This document shows positions 4,361 through 30,829 of a stretch of DNA of 64,000 nt, piece after piece. The stretch's first letter is position 1, and each line of letters opens with the position of its first letter. The notes under the pieces are model-generated. The model saw nothing but the letters and a program-made list of their open reading frames with translations, was not told the origin of the DNA and ran no database searches. Position numbers and translations under genes: made by a program. This DNA comes from Streptantibioticus ferralitis (GTDB taxonomy: Bacteria; Actinomycetota; Actinomycetes; Streptomycetales; Streptomycetaceae): the NCBI RefSeq assembly GCF_029223525.1, contig NZ_JARHTQ010000007.1, positions 124,001 to 188,000 on the forward strand. Reading direction: 5' to 3'.

Positions 4361-5332
4361 ATGCGCATTCTCGTTCTTGGCGGTACGTCATTCGTGGGCC
4401 GCGCCATCGTGGAGGACGCCCTACGCACCGGGGCCGAAGTGACCCTGTTCGGCAGGGGCAGGACCGGGACCGAACTGTTCCCCGAACTGACCCGGCTCAT
4501 CGGCGACCGGGACACCGGCGACTACACCGCGCTGCGCGGCGGCAGTTGGGACGCGATCGTGGATGTCAGCGGCTACCTTCCACGACACGTCGGGCAGGCG
4601 ATGGACGCGGTGGGTGACCGCGTCGGCCGGTACCTGTTCATCTCCAGCCATGCGGTGTACCAGCGCACGGGGTTGGCGCCGGGCTCGACCGAGGACACGC
4701 CGCGCCGTCCGCCCGTTCGGGACACCGAGGAACTCAACGACGACACCTACGGTCCGCTCAAGGTGGCCTGTGAGGACGATGTGCTGGCCCGGTACGGCAC
4801 GCGGGCCACGATCGTACGGCCGGGGAAGGTGGCCGGGCCGTACGACCCGTCAGACACCTTCACCTACTGGGCGCGCCGGGCCGCGCGCGGTGGGCGGGTG
4901 GCGCTGCCTGCCGACCCCGAGCAGCCGGTGCAGATCATCGACTCGCGCGACCTGGCCCGCCTGGTGGTCCAGCTGCTCGTCGACGACCGTCCAGGTGTGT
5001 TCCACGCAGTGGGACCGGCCGAGCCGATCACGTTCGGCGGGCTCATCGAGACCTGCGCACGGGTGGCGGGCACCCGGGTGGAGATCGTGCCGGTGTCACC
5101 CGAAACGCTGCCGCCGCTGTTCCCGCTGGTACGGCCGAACTGGCCGACGCAGCAACGCAGCTCGGCGCGCGCCCGGGCGGCGGGTATGCCCTCGACTCCG
5201 CTGGAGGTGACCGCGGCCGACGTCCTGGCCTGGGACCGCGAGCGCGGTGAGCCGCCGCTGCGGCGGGGCTTCTCGCCCGAGGAGGAGCGAGCGCTGCTCG
5301 CGCGGCGGGACGGCGGGGCCCTGGCCGACTGA
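4361..5332 (+). CDS. NAD-dependent epimerase/dehydratase (extended SDR)
   Basis: The 323-residue protein opens with MRILVLGGTSFVGRA, the GxxGxxG nucleotide-binding loop of extended SDRs, and has the active-site YGPLK at 130-134. FISSHAVY corresponds to the catalytic serine strand. These proteins act on nucleotide-sugars or similar small molecules in the cytoplasm. Substrate residues are not diagnostic. Two ATGs in frame (4355 and 4361) are possible. No ribosome site is visible, but TAGTGT at 4347-4352 lies 8 bases before 4361, which fits a leaderless transcript. Confidence 0.8.
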   Translation: MRILVLGGTSFVGRAIVEDALRTGAEVTLFGRGRTGTELFPELTRLIGDRDTGDYTALRGGSWDAIVDVSGYLPRHVGQAMDAVGDRVGRYLFISSHAVYQRTGLAPGSTEDTPRRPPVRDTEELNDDTYGPLKVACEDDVLARYGTRATIVRPGKVAGPYDPSDTFTYWARRAARGGRVALPADPEQPVQIIDSRDLARLVVQLLVDDRPGVFHAVGPAEPITFGGLIETCARVAGTRVEIVPVSPETLPPLFPLVRPNWPTQQRSSARARAAGMPSTPLEVTAADVLAWDRERGEPPLRRGFSPEEERALLARRDGGALAD

Positions 5333-24370: not shown

Positions 24371-24766
24371 TCAGGTGCGGTCGATGTGGACGTTGGTGGA
24401 CTTCACGCGGGCGGTGGCCTGGACGCCGACCTCCAGTCCGAGTTCCTCGACCGCCTCCCGGGTGAGCAGGGAGACCAGCCGGTGGGGGCCCGCCTGGATT
24501 TCGACCTGGGCGGCCACGTCGCCGAGCTTGACCGCGGTGACGATGCCCGGGAAGGCGTTACGGGCCGTGGTGTACGAGGCGTCGTCCTCTCCGCCCGCGC
24601 TCTGCGCCAGTTCCACGGAGAAGGCGGCCAGATCCCGGCCGTCGATGAGACGTCGGCCTGCCTCGTCGCGATGTGTGGGGACCCGGCCGCCGTCCGCCCA
24701 GCGCCGGGCGGTGTCCGGACTGACGCCCAGCAGCCGCGCCGCCTGGCCGATTGTGTAGGACTGCAT
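24371..24766 (-). CDS. MerR-type HTH plus TOBE molybdate-responsive regulator
   Basis: The 131-residue protein joins an N-terminal MerR/excisionase-type HTH (QSYTIGQAARLLGVSPDTAR, RWADGGRVPTHRDEAGRR) to a C-terminal TOBE/Mop domain (NAFPGIVTAV, QVEIQAGPHRLVSLLTREAVEELG, ARVKSTNVHID) that binds molybdate or tungstate. This is the ModE idea in a compact form. It is divergent from the Mop gene at 25038, with two identical-architecture palindromes between them. A close paralogue lies at 26249-26647. It is inferred to control the molybdenum block. Confidence 0.85.
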   Translation of the reverse strand: MQSYTIGQAARLLGVSPDTARRWADGGRVPTHRDEAGRRLIDGRDLAAFSVELAQSAGGEDDASYTTARNAFPGIVTAVKLGDVAAQVEIQAGPHRLVSLLTREAVEELGLEVGVQATARVKSTNVHIDRT

Positions 24767-24791
24767 GTCCCTCAGATTAGGACCGCATGCC

Positions 24792-24803
24792 TTGCATTTG
24801 CAA
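24792..24803. promoter_or_regulatory. Candidate TOBE-regulator operator, site 1
   Basis: TTGCA-TT-TGCAA is a perfect 5+2+5 inverted repeat 26 bases upstream of the MerR-TOBE start. Its architecture is repeated 32 bp away. Confidence 0.6.
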
Positions 24804-24823
24804 TCGTCTTTCGTCGCTGAGCA

Positions 24824-24835
24824 TCGCAAATGCGA
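24824..24835. promoter_or_regulatory. Candidate TOBE-regulator operator, site 2
   Basis: TCGCA-AA-TGCGA is a perfect 5+2+5 inverted repeat. It shares the core YGCAnnTGCR with site 1, and its centre is 32 bp from the centre of site 1, close to three helical turns, so two dimers could bind on one DNA face. Confidence 0.6.
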
Positions 24836-25037
24836 GGGTCGGCGGAGGTCTGCCGAGGCGCCCGGACGGTGGCGTCCCCCCGTTCGCCAGGTGGTGGCTC
24901 TGGTCTGCCAACTGGTGCGCAGGCAACGCCTGGCGTTTACGAGGGGTTGCCGCCACGCGGTGTCGGCGCTGGTTAATCTACCTCTGCCGCTAAGGAGCAA
25001 GTGGGAAATTCCGCACGATGGACTTGAGGTGGCTTCC

Positions 25038-25457
25038 ATGAGCCTGAGCATTCGCAATCAGCTTCCCGGCACCGTCGTCTCCGTGACCCCCGGCACGGTC
25101 ATGGCCACCGTGAAGACACGCCTGAACGGCGGTCAGCAGATCACCGCCGCGGTGACCCTGGAGGCGGTCAAGGACCTCGGGATCGCCGAGGGCAGCGCGG
25201 TGCGCGCCCTGGTCAAGTCCACCGAGGTGTCGTTGGCCACCGGCCCGGTGACCGGTCTCACCATCCGCAACCAGATCCCCGGTACCGTCTCGTCGGTCGC
25301 CACCGGCGACGCCATGGCGACGGTGAAAGTGGCCGTGGAGGGTGGGGAGTTGACGGCTGCCGTCACCAAGGACGCCGTCGACGACCTCCGGCTGGCCGAG
25401 GGATCCTCGGTCGTCGCCCTGATCAAGTCGACCGAGATCTCACTCGCCGCCGCCTGA
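25038..25457 (+). CDS. Mop protein with two TOBE domains (molybdate binding)
   Basis: The 139-residue protein is two tandem TOBE/Mop domains, residues about 3-67 and 74-138. Each begins IRNQ(L/I)PGTV and ends (V/L)IKSTE(I/V)SLA or the like. Mop proteins assemble into rings that store molybdate or tungstate in the cytoplasm or buffer it for cofactor synthesis. GAGGTGG lies about 6 bases before the ATG. Divergent from the MerR-TOBE gene, it is the probable main target of that regulator. Confidence 0.9.
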   Translation: MSLSIRNQLPGTVVSVTPGTVMATVKTRLNGGQQITAAVTLEAVKDLGIAEGSAVRALVKSTEVSLATGPVTGLTIRNQIPGTVSSVATGDAMATVKVAVEGGELTAAVTKDAVDDLRLAEGSSVVALIKSTEISLAAA

Positions 25458-25546: not shown

Positions 25547-26044
25547 CTACACCTGGTGTTCTCCGCTCCCCGGCGGAAGATAGGCGCCGACCCAGATACT
25601 GGTGATCGCGCTGACGTAGCGTGCCCCGCACGCATCGCCGGGCACGACGAGCTGGCTGCCCTCCGCGTCGAGCGGATGCCCGTCCAGGCTGGTGGCCAGC
25701 AGTACGGGAGAGTCGCCGAACTCGGCGTCGATCTCCGGCCAGGACAGCACCGCCCGATGACCGTCACCGCCGAAGACCGCTATCAGGAAGTGCGAACGGT
25801 CCTTGCGGCGGCGCACATCGAACGTCGGTCCCGCCTCGGCCACCACATCACGCAGCAGAGGCCCGGCGAAGACATGGTGCTGGGCGCCGTTGGCCGCGCA
25901 GTCGAAGACCACTTCGGCCTGGTGGGTGGGCCAGCGTCGCAGCTGGGCCACCGACAGGTTGACGGGGCGTTCGAGGTCGCCGTACAAGCGCAGCGTCCGA
26001 ATACGGACAGTCGGCATCAGAGGCGGTGCTGTGATGCGGCTCAT
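25547..26044 (-). CDS. Small molybdopterin-dependent oxidoreductase, sulfite-oxidase fold
   Basis: The 165-residue protein matches the oxidoreductase molybdopterin-binding domain. The EVVFDCAANGAQHHVFAGP segment carries the cysteine that normally ligates molybdenum, followed by GPLLRDVVAEAG, and the C-terminal half (LVVPGDACGARYVSAITSIWVG) holds the RYV/W pterin contacts. It lacks a heme domain and dimerisation domain, so it is a minimal enzyme of unknown substrate, likely needing a partner. GAGGGG lies 6 bases before the ATG. It lies within the molybdenum block, between the Mop and second MerR-TOBE genes. Confidence 0.8.
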   Translation of the reverse strand: MSRITAPPLMPTVRIRTLRLYGDLERPVNLSVAQLRRWPTHQAEVVFDCAANGAQHHVFAGPLLRDVVAEAGPTFDVRRRKDRSHFLIAVFGGDGHRAVLSWPEIDAEFGDSPVLLATSLDGHPLDAEGSQLVVPGDACGARYVSAITSIWVGAYLPPGSGEHQV

Positions 26045-26248
26045 CGGCGTCCCCTCATTCCCCTGTGAACCCGAGTGCGTCGAGGTGTCCGGAGAACGTG
26101 ATGCCCGCCCGCGAAGATCAGGAACCGAAAATGCCGCACCTTTCGGCCAGTCAGCCTTGCGAATGTTTGGGGTGGATGAGTGAACCCCTGTCAGATGCGT
26201 AACTCTCCATGCCCACCGCTAGGCATCTGCCTGCCACTGCCATCGCAT

Positions 26249-26647
26249 TCACCGGCGGCGGTCGACGTGCACGCTGGTCGACTTCACCCGGGCCGTAGCC
26301 GCGACCCCCACGGCCAGCCCCAGATCCTCCACCGCCTCGCGCGTCACCAGCGAGACCAGCCGGTGTGGCCCAGCCTGGATCTCCACCTGTGCCACCACAC
26401 CGTCCGTGTGGACAGCGGTGACGATGCCCCGGAACCCATTGCGCACCGACGTCGGGACCTCGGCACCCGCACCGTCGACCCCCGCCGCCCAATCGACTGC
26501 GAACGCGGCGAGACTTGCCCCGTCGATCACCCGGTTCCCGGCGTCGTCCCGCTCGGTGGCCACACGCCCCGCATCGGCCCACCGCCGGACAGTCTCCCCA
26601 CTGACCCCCAGCAGGCGGGCGGCCTGGCCAATGCTGTAAGACGGCAT
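26249..26647 (-). CDS. Second MerR-type HTH plus TOBE regulator
   Basis: At 132 residues this is a clear paralogue of the protein encoded at 24371-24766: same HTH (SYSIGQAARLLGVSGETVRRW), same TOBE (QVEIQAGPHRLVSLVTREAVEDLG, ARVKSTSVHVD). The linker region differs (AAGVDGAGAEVPTSV), and the TGCA palindromes are not found upstream. It lies 79 bases downstream of the nitrate reductase on the same strand of reading but separated by a gap, and may be the local regulator of that gene. Confidence 0.83.
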   Translation of the reverse strand: MPSYSIGQAARLLGVSGETVRRWADAGRVATERDDAGNRVIDGASLAAFAVDWAAGVDGAGAEVPTSVRNGFRGIVTAVHTDGVVAQVEIQAGPHRLVSLVTREAVEDLGLAVGVAATARVKSTSVHVDRRR

Positions 26648-26725: not shown

Positions 26726-29700
26726 TCAGTAGATGTCGCGGAGGTAGCGCTTGTCGGCGGCGAGCTGCTTGACGTACACGGTCGCGGCGTCCTCGCTCAG
26801 GCCGCCGTGGACTGTGGCGATGTCACGCAGCGCCTGGTCGACGTCCTTGGCCATACGGGATGCGTTGCCGCAGACGTAGAAGTGCGCGCCGTCCTGGAGC
26901 CAGGACCACAGCTGGGGGCCGTGCTCGCGCATCCGGTCCTGGACGTAGACCTTGGCCCGCTGGTCACGGGAGAACGCGGTGTCGAGACGGGTGAGGGTGC
27001 CGTCCGCGAGGTGGGCGGCCAGCTCGTCCTCGTAGTAGAAGTCGGTGGCGCGGTGCTGTTCGCCGAAGAACAGCCAGGCGGGGGAGCGCTGGCCGAGGGC
27101 GCGGCGCTCGTCGAGGAAGCCGATGAACGGGGCGACACCGGTGCCGGGGCCCACCATCACCATCGGGGTGGCGGGATCCGCCGGCGGCCGGAAGTGCGGG
27201 GAGCTTTGGACGAAGACCGGCACCGGGCTGTCGGGTGCGGAGTCGGCGAGGAAAGGCGAGCAGACGCCGCCCCGCGAGTGGCCGCGGGGATTCTCGTACC
27301 GGACGACGGAGACGGTCAGCGAGATCAGGTGCGGGTCGCTGAGCGGGCTGGAGGATATGGAGTACCGGCGCGGGTGAAGGTGTTTGAGGACCGTGGACCA
27401 CTCCTGGGCGGTGGCGCGGACCGCGTGCTCGGCGATCACATCGACGGCCTGGCGGCCCCAGCACCACTTCGCCAGTTCGCCCTTGTTGTCGGGGCGCAGC
27501 AACTTCTTCAGCAGGCGGTCGCCGGTGCGCTCGGTGACGAAACGCAGTAGGGCGGGGGTGATTCCGGTGATGTCCAGGTGCCGGTGCAGGGCCTGGTGCA
27601 GGGGGACCTCGCCGATGCCCTCGACCTCCACACCGGTCGCCGGGTCGAGGCCGGTGACGGCCAGCCATTCGGCGACCAGCTGGGGCGAGTTGACGGGGCG
27701 GACGCCGAGCGCGTCCCCCACCTGGTAGGCCAGCGGCGTCTCGCTGTCGCGGGTGTCGAAGGTGAACCGGCGCACCTCCTTGCCCGCCCCCGGGCCGCTG
27801 AGCAACCGGTTGCCGGTCAGTCGAGCGGCTACGGAGGCGGGCTTCCGGGAACTCGGGGCCAGGGCGAGGGCGGATGCCGGAGCCGTCGCGGTCTCGCAGG
27901 CCAGGGCGGTGAGGACCTGGTCGAGCCAGGCGTGGGCGGAACGCTCGTAGTCCGGTTCGCAGTCCGTGCGCGGCGCCAGCCGCATCGCGCCCAGTTCGTC
28001 CAGGCGCTCGTCCAGTCGGCGGCCGTGGCCGCAGAAGTCGTCGTACGAGGAGTCGCCGAAGGCGAGGACGGCATACCGCACCCCCTCCAGGCGCGGGGTG
28101 TCGGGCGCGGCCAGGGCGTCCCAGAAGCCGGAGCCGTTGTCGGGGGCGCCCCCGTCGCCGAACGTACTGGTGATCAGCAGGAGGTCGGCGGCGGTCGGCA
28201 GCGCGCCGGGAGTGGTGTCGTCCATGCCGACCAGCGTCGCCTTGTGGCCGTTGGCGATGAGCCGTTCAGCGGTGGCCGCCGCGAAGTCCTCGGCGTTGCC
28301 GGTCTGCGAGGCCCACAACACGAAGACCTGGTCGCCGCTGCCGCCGCGGGCTTCGGTCTGCGGGGCGGCGGCCCGGGAGTACATCCCGGCCAGCACACCG
28401 TTCACCCACAGCGCGTGTTCCGGGCTGAAGGGCGCCGACGGCGGCAGCACCGGCACGCCGGGCGCGCCCACTTGGAGTCCGGCCAAGAAGCCTGCCAGGT
28501 AACGGCGTTCACGCTCGGCCAGTAGGGGTGGGGGCGTGCTGGCTATGCCCAGTTGCTCCCAGGCCGAACCGGCGGTTGGTGCCTCGTCGGCGGCCTGCGG
28601 GGCGGCGGGCGGGTTGTGCCCGCCCCTTCCGCCCTGCGCGACGTCCGCCCACGGCCGGGTGGCGGGGGCCGAGACTCTCGTCAACGACACCGCGCAGACC
28701 TTGAACTCCGGCTGGAAGGAGATCGGGTCCACCGCATCGCTGGTCACGGCGTTGACACTGAGGTACTCGCCGAACAGGTCGTTCCAGTGGAACGGCGCGA
28801 AGCAGCACCCCGGCCGCACCCGGTCCGTCACCACCGCCGGGAGCACCGCGCGGCCCCGCCGCGAGGCGACCTCCACCGAGTCGCCCTCCGCGATGCCCAA
28901 CTCCCCTGCGTCCTGCGGATGCAGCTCCACGAACGGCCCCGGATTGCCCTTGTTGAGCTTGGCTACCTTCCCCGTCTTGGTGAGGGTGTGCCACTGGTGC
29001 TGCAGCCGACCGGTGTTCAGCACGTACGGGAAGTCGTCGTCCGGCATCTCGGCGGCTGTCATGAACGGCCGAGCGTGGAACACCGCCCGCCCGCTCGCTG
29101 TGGGGAAGACCGGGCCGTCGCCGCTGGCGTCCATGTACCGGATCGGATTGCGGTCCGGGCCGTCCTCGGCGGGCGCGGGCCACTGCACGGGCATGGCACG
29201 GAGCCGCTCGTAGGTCACCCCCCGCAGGTCGTAGCCGGTCTTCGGATTCCAGGCGCGTTTGATCTCCTCGAAGACCTCCTCCGCGCTGCCGTACGAGAAC
29301 CCGTGCTCGTATCCCATCTCGCGGGCCACGGCCGCGATGATCCGCCAGTCCGCCAGTGCCTCTCCAGGAGGATCCACCGCCTGCTGGGCAAGGGTGAGAT
29401 CGCGCTCGCTGTTGATCAGCACGCCCTCGGCCTCGACCCACATGGCGGCGGGAAGCACGACATCGGCGTAGGCGTTGGTCTCGGTCTCGGCGAAGACGTC
29501 CTGTGTGACGACGAACTCGGCCGCCTCCAACCCCTCGATGACGGTCCTCCGGTTGGCCACCGAGGCCACCGGGTTGGTGCAGATGATCCAGCAGGCCTTG
29601 ATGGCACCGTCCACCATCCGCTGGAACATCTCCACGGTGCCCTGGCCGACACCGTCCTTGCGAAGCGTCCCCGCGGGCAGCTCCCACAACTCCTCGACGA

Positions 29701-30829
29701 ACGCCCGCTCCTCGTCCACCAGCACCGACCGCTGGCCGGGCAGACCCGGGCCCATGTAGCCCATCTCGCGCCCGCCCATGGCGTTGGGCTGGCCGGTGAG
29801 GGAGAACGGGCCGCTGCCGGGACGGCAGATCGCGCCGGTGGCGAGATGGAGGTTGACCAGCGCGTTGGTGTTCCAGGTGCCGTGGGTGGACTGGTTGAGG
29901 CCCATGGTCCAGCAGCTCATCCACTCCCCGGCCTCGCCGATCAGCCGTGCCGCCCGCCGGATGTCCTCCTCCGGTAGGCCGGTCAGCTCGGCGACGGCGG
30001 CGGGGGAGAAGTCCTGGAGGAACTCCGGCATCACCGCCCAGCCCTCGGTGTGCCGCTCGATGAACTCGGGATCGGTGTGCCCGTTCTCGTGCAGCAGGTA
30101 CAGCAGCCCGTTGAGCAGCGCCAGATCCGTCCCCGGCCGGATCTGCAGAAACAGATCCGCCTTGTCGGCGGTCGCGCTGCGGCGCGGGTCGACGACGATC
30201 AGCTTGGCGCCCGCCCTGACCCGGGCCATCAGACGGAGGAAGAGGATCGGGTGGCAGTCGGCCATGTTCGAGCCGATGACGAAGAAGACGTCCGCCTTCT
30301 CGAAGTCCTGGTACGACCCGGGCGGGCCGTCCGCGCCGAGCGACAGCTTGTAGCCGCTGCCCGCACTGGCCATGCACAGCCGGGAGTTCGACTCGATCTG
30401 GTTGGTGCGCACGAAGCCCTTGGCCAGCTTGTTCGCCAGGTACTGGGCTTCGAGGCTCATCTGTCCGGACACATAGAACGCGACGGCGTCCGGCCCGTGT
30501 TCGTCGATGACGGCCCGCAGCCGCCGGGCGGTCTGGCCGATCGCCGCCTCCACGGGGGAGGGCGCCGGCTCCGCGCCACGTTCGGCGCGGGTCAGCGCGG
30601 TGGTCAGCCGCCCAGGGGCGGCGAGCATGTCGGCCGTGGTCGCGCCCTTGGTGCACAGTCGCCCGAAGTTGGCGGGGTGGTCCTTGTCGCCGGACGCCTT
30701 CAGGACGGTACGCCGCCCGTCCGGGCCGAACCCGATGTCGAGGACCATCCCACACCCCACACCGCAGTACGAGCAGACCGTCCGCACCTGTGCGGTGTCA
30801 CGGATACCCGGCTCCTGCACGGTCGTCAC
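26726..30829 (-). CDS. Fused assimilatory nitrate reductase and sulfite-reductase-type flavoprotein
   Basis: The 1367-residue protein unites two enzymes. Residues about 1-710 are a NasA/NapA-type molybdopterin oxidoreductase: a [4Fe-4S] site C19-C22-C26-C59, a molybdenum-ligating cysteine C152 in SRLCMAS, and a dinucleotide-binding domain ending [10 protein letters not shown] short linker follows. Residues from about 830 are a CysJ-like NADPH reductase: flavodoxin ([14 protein letters not shown]), FAD domain (RRYSISSSP), and NADPH domain ([46 protein letters not shown]). It should take electrons from NADPH to nitrate in one chain. The start is GTG, with GGGGGG upstream. Confidence 0.9.

Follow-up and report, generated by a model that had tools for sequence, protein, structure and literature searches.

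The window analysed here, a 64,000-nt stretch of Streptantibioticus ferralitis DNA, contains a minus-strand gene (24371-24766) encoding a 131-aa regulator with a MerR/HTH_17-type winged helix-turn-helix (wHTH) and a single TOBE domain, as assigned from domain profile matches, a structure model and an alignment. Divergent from it lies a plus-strand gene (25038-25457) for a di-TOBE Mop protein (molybdate binding), recognized by profile matches. The original prediction placed two palindromes in the divergent gap between these genes, and both the gap and the palindromes were borne out by the sequence: TTGCATTTGCAA at 24792-24803 and TCGCAAATGCGA at 24824-24835 are 12 bp long, have centres 32 bp apart, and contain the asymmetric core GCAAATGC in mutually inverted copies. 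The pair that it described is real and rare, but the array comprises three sites, and the third had been overlooked. This predicted site 3 (24763-24770, minus strand) is a degenerate GGACATGC with 5/6 consensus bases, which overlaps the start codon and lies 31 bp away from site 2. Predicted operator sites 1 (distal, TCGCAAATGCGA), 2 (proximal, TTGCATTTGCAA) and 3, all read on the minus strand, lie at -67, -35 and -4 of the regulator gene but over 200 bp away from the start of Mop, and they were therefore assigned to the regulator promoter. The Mop gene is divergent and adjacent to the regulator in only some relatives; its control by the array was considered and left as a possibility.

The wHTH of the regulator matched the MerR profile PF00376 with 40.6 bits (cut-off 28.2), and its one TOBE domain, at residues 66-128, matched PF03459 with 64.6 bits; the ModE_repress model gave no match in the 131-aa protein. 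An AlphaFold2 model (mean pLDDT 89) placed the wHTH at residues 1-56 and the TOBE domain at 71-129, with a predicted helix at 43-56 leading into the linker and TOBE domain, and without the classical MerR coiled coil. The nearest structural relatives were HiNmlR, RacA and BldC for the wHTH, and ModE, ModG, Mop and tungbindin for the TOBE part. Among 49 sequences, S16, R21 and R22 of the HTH and R69, N70 and K122 of the TOBE domain are invariant, and residue 67 is Ser or Thr in nearly all. In the alignment, T/S67, R69 and K122 of the regulator correspond to Ser4, Arg6 and Lys60, the oxyanion (tungstate) ligands of Tub (PMC11980592), and the regulator shares with TOBE/Mop proteins both the TOBE fold and the Ser-x-Arg and Lys ligand residues.

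A paralogous wHTH-TOBE regulator, 68% identical, is encoded at 26249-26647 (minus strand). It follows, on the same strand, a gene (26726-30829) for a 1367-aa protein in which a nitrate-reductase/formate-dehydrogenase-like molybdoenzyme is fused to a CysJ-like flavoprotein reductase, and on its other side lies a molybdopterin-domain gene (25547-26044, minus strand). The gap between the paralogous regulator and the molybdopterin-domain gene, upstream of the latter, holds a candidate second operator pair (26191-26230, no strand assigned), made up of TCAGATGC (26191-26198) and GCATCTGC (26223-26230), 32 bp apart and with 11/12 consensus bases. Its presence in that gap is unlikely by chance because a genome scan found only about 25 other pairs of the same quality in 8.8 Mb. 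No counterpart was seen near the molybdopterin-domain gene in relatives.

To examine conservation, 80 relatives of the regulator were taken from species-level genomes, the tallies thus counting such genomes and not independent events. In 37 of the 80 (type I), the regulator gene leads directly into a modABC operon of the same type as that of this genome. The original prediction had been made to stand or fall with conservation of the palindromes in orthologous intergenic regions, and they proved to be conserved at fixed positions in the 37 type-I operons of the Streptomyces group as well as class-wide. Counted from the start codon, matches to GCANNTGC concentrate at exactly -66 and -35, with mean matches of 5.2/6 (z 7.1) and 5.3/6 (z 7.4), respectively, relative to all other positions. 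The -66 equivalent of site 1 has at least 5/6 matches in 32/37 operons and the counterpart of site 2 in 35/37, while the -4 site over the start codon is exact in 34/37 and has at least 5/6 matches in all 37; sites at -66, -35 and -4 are present together in 36/37. The start-codon site is mostly absent from type-II regulator genes (see below), and thus it is not a general translation signal. The upstream flanks are near random, with a pairwise identity of 0.30 against 0.70 at the proximal site, and such saturation of the flanks argues against simple inheritance of the predicted sites. The 12-bp palindrome follows the consensus TNGCANNTGCNA in Streptomyces; in other actinomycetes it is approximately YCGCANNTGCGG. 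Many type-I operons also carry TTCCTCCA at -82 to -75 and TGGAGA at -56 to -51, which form an imperfect inverted repeat on either side of the distal operator and are absent from this window.

The sites coincide with what reads as a leaderless promoter, its -35 box within site 2 and its start within site 3. The predicted -35 hexamer, TTGCAA (24798-24803, minus strand), lies inside site 2; the predicted -10 hexamer, TAATCT (24774-24779, minus strand), follows it by 18 bp and precedes the ATG by 7 bp. The same layout recurs in the type-I operons, where the proximal site holds TTGCAN, TANNNT follows 18 bp on, and 7 bp separate its end from the ATG. Within the 37 operons, TTG..A at -37 to -33 is nearly invariant, and T(-13), A(-12) and T(-8) are invariant or nearly so. 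A generic consensus scan of 24700-25100 returned no promoter; such scans commonly miss GC-rich actinomycete promoters.

These positions bear on the direction of control. The protein might activate modABC at low molybdate, with the apo form binding, instead of repressing at high molybdate. Activation from operators near promoter boxes, or between them, is typical of classical MerR proteins, and outside Streptomyces the proximal site is often found immediately before the presumed -10. The type-I sites, however, lie over the -35 box and over the start codon or presumed transcription start, which are usually repressing positions, and the spacer is 18 bp, compared with 19-20 bp in classical MerR promoters (PMC5045206); we consider activation unlikely. 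Control at the RNA level, with a Moco riboswitch or leader hairpins behind the inverted repeats, is highly improbable. Moco riboswitches do control molybdate transporters elsewhere, including in some Actinobacteria (PMC2408646), but the only Rfam match in the window and at modABC is a tRNA, the predicted transcript begins downstream of two of the sites, and a constant 31-bp phasing suits DNA and not RNA. The Moco riboswitch was rejected as a candidate, its Rfam model being unmatched in the window or at modABC and the position of the sites also contradicting it.

Across the 8.8-Mb genome, the exact pair GCANNTGC-N24-GCANNTGC occurs in three places: the window locus, the modABC promoter and an unrelated repeat. 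The last, on another contig (C54), was discarded as a local inverted or tandem repeat in a repeat-rich stretch. A single-site search with the extended ATYGCAAATGCRA, allowing 2 mismatches, gave 85 matches against 78 in the reversed control, a small excess, and was informative only through its two exact matches and the match before modA. At modABC, on contig C22, GCATCTGC, GCAGATGC and GCATATGC follow one another at 32- and 31-bp steps, and this three-site array is succeeded by a decayed wHTH-TOBE gene, modA and a modBC reading frame. In the two congeneric genomes, modA is likewise preceded by three sites with these steps, and the regulator remnant has shrunk to about twenty codons. All three genus genomes have the wHTH-TOBE gene before modA reduced to a pseudogene or mini-ORF (L117, at about 4495-4670 of G000:C22; L250; L251), with the array intact. 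Both congeners keep an intact regulator elsewhere in the genome (94-97% identical), in one of them beside Mop. At the regulator-Mop locus in these two genomes the array is weakened, the site near -36 reading GCAAACGC or GCAATCGC and an exact distal site being absent, while the copies before modA are intact. Retention of the array where the local regulator gene has been lost suggests binding in trans, with the reservation that the decay may be recent.

The regulator was detected in 108/148 class genomes (E ≤1e-15), and 98 loci from other families were searched for the sites. Within 150 bp upstream, 55 of the 98 carry the exact octamer (shuffles: mean 5.4, maximum 12), 31 carry exact pairs spaced 30-34 bp (0.3, maximum 3), and 56 carry relaxed 12-mer pairs at 30-34 bp (1.0, maximum 4). 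The commonest spacing is 31, echoed at 62 and 64; no 30-34-bp pairs were found in the first 150 bp inside the gene. In the 43 loci that lack the exact octamer, the relaxed form is often present, although some loci (for example L170, L171 and L222) have not even a relaxed site. In 90/98 loci, modA, modB or modC lies on the same strand as the regulator. A variant site, CCGnAAnTnCGG, occurs at the same 31-bp steps in five loci (L156, L157, L158, L161 and L165), which suggests co-evolution of the site and the recognition helix.

Type-II modABC is a second, divergent type, in which modA is 44-49% identical. Its independent triple array, AAACGCACATGC, GCTCATGC and GCANNTGC at steps of 31 and 32 bp, is located directly before modA rather than before the regulator, and the third site adjoins a TATCAT-like -10. 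Many type-II regulator genes have in common a different palindrome, TAACGCTATATCGCGTTATA; at L040, L064, L072, L079, L082, L097 and L107 it lies at about -75 to -40 of the regulator start and replaces the GCANNTGC array.

The distribution of the sites leaves almost negligible probability that the palindromes arose by chance or reflect shared ancestry without function. In GC-rich DNA the octamer on its own occurs commonly, and YGCANNTGCR alone is ordinary in the window (8 occurrences against 7.3 expected); the octamer alone, being at chance level there, was rejected as evidence. Against a chance origin stand the positional conservation with saturated flanks, the rarity of the pair and the excess over shuffles in the 98 loci. 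A different reading accepts the array as real and assigns it to another factor controlling molybdate uptake, for instance a nitrogen or redox regulator, instead of the wHTH-TOBE protein. Linkage is not equal to binding, and with TTCCTCCA near -80 and TGGAGA near -53 beside site 1, several factors may act. We nevertheless regard another binder as quite unlikely: the array and the regulator co-occur across many families, the array before modA persists in the genus while the intact regulator sits elsewhere in the genome, and no pairs were found at modB in regulator-less genomes, a small control with only two usable loci.

Collectively, these observations make it very probable that the adjacent wHTH-TOBE ('MerR-TOBE') regulator has three operators, of which the palindromes are two, and that the oxyanion-loaded protein represses its own gene and molybdate uptake. 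The original prediction that a small, MerR-like substitute for ModE has its operator here gains support from the positional conservation and the 90/98 modABC linkage, and it needs amending as to the unit concerned, which in relatives would be the regulator-modABC operon. The regulator is normally the first gene of this operon. Sites repeated every 31-32 bp run from upstream of the predicted -35 box as far as the start of transcription and translation, and with steps equal to three helical turns all of them lie on one DNA face. The protein, loaded with molybdate or tungstate as the presumed co-repressor, most likely binds the array cooperatively and would block RNA polymerase at the -35 box and the start, such that high molybdate would turn off both the regulator gene and molybdate uptake. 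Co-repression is the best-supported reading of the sequence data, and would parallel ModE with another fold and another operator. As to the oligomeric state, single TOBE domains of storage proteins assemble as trimers of dimers (PMC11980592), and one may speculate that a trimer-of-dimers TOBE assembly would fit three palindromes. A molybdate-filled, Mop-type hexamer with three wHTH pairs, or three dimers joined by it, might then clamp or wrap the three-palindrome promoter, an arrangement that we put forward tentatively, as possible if somewhat doubtful.

ModE is the textbook molybdate regulator. Its N-terminal domain (TIGR00637) gave nothing above the cut-off in this genome, and its DNA-binding domain (E ≤1e-10) was found in none of 60 actinomycete class genomes, although most of the sampled actinomycetes carry modABC. 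A compact, one-TOBE repressor, co-repressed by molybdate, presumably acts in place of ModE in actinomycetes and is its likely replacement there. In an incomplete literature search we found neither a description of this operator nor a study of an HTH-TOBE molybdate regulator from an actinomycete, and a regulator combining an HTH with a molybdate-binding domain of this kind has apparently gone unstudied so far. With three palindromes at 31-bp steps as the operator code, regulons can be predicted for each genome in turn, and molybdate control in Streptomyces and its relatives becomes directly testable; for sensors, a small oxyanion-responsive switch is added. Since Mop-type TOBE domains form trimers of dimers, the array geometry also raises a structural question, and a hexamer clamping the promoter would, if true, represent a geometry new to one-component metal-oxyanion repressors.

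Compared with known systems, the regulator shares with the Mop/Tub storage proteins a single TOBE domain with matching ligand residues, but those proteins have no DNA-binding domain. TaoR and TaoR-like regulators of tungstoenzymes (Rajeev et al. 2019, as cited in PMC11980592) likewise combine HTH_17 with a molybdate/tungstate role; in domain content, TaoR differs by a periplasmic-binding-protein-like domain that is absent from the 131-aa regulator. Classical MerR proteins resemble it in the N-terminal wHTH, which it possesses with a fold match to HiNmlR, and in palindromic promoter sites. They differ in using one 21-22-bp site in a 19-20-bp spacer, in contrast to short repeated sites and an 18-bp spacer here, and in their long coiled-coil dimerization helix, which the regulator model lacks. 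BldC, a MerR-like wHTH protein of Streptomyces, has a very similar wHTH fold (TM 0.80 by target length) and also lacks the classical coiled coil, but recognizes direct repeats of 9 bp arranged head to tail, AATTNNNN(C) (PMC5859096). Here we see no direct repeats but GC-core palindromes 31 bp apart, together with a TOBE domain, and the regulator scores 21.4 on the BldC family model NF033787 (cut-off 77). ModE of Escherichia coli is likewise a modABC-linked DNA-binding protein with TOBE domains, and an oxyanion co-repressor controlling molybdate uptake is predicted here. It differs in having another N-terminal HTH domain and two TOBE domains, as against a MerR/HTH_17 wHTH and one TOBE domain, and its operator consensus, ATCGNTATATA-N6-TATATANCGAT (PMC545781), is of a TATATA type distinct from the GCANNTGC sites that recur every 31 bp in the operator described here.
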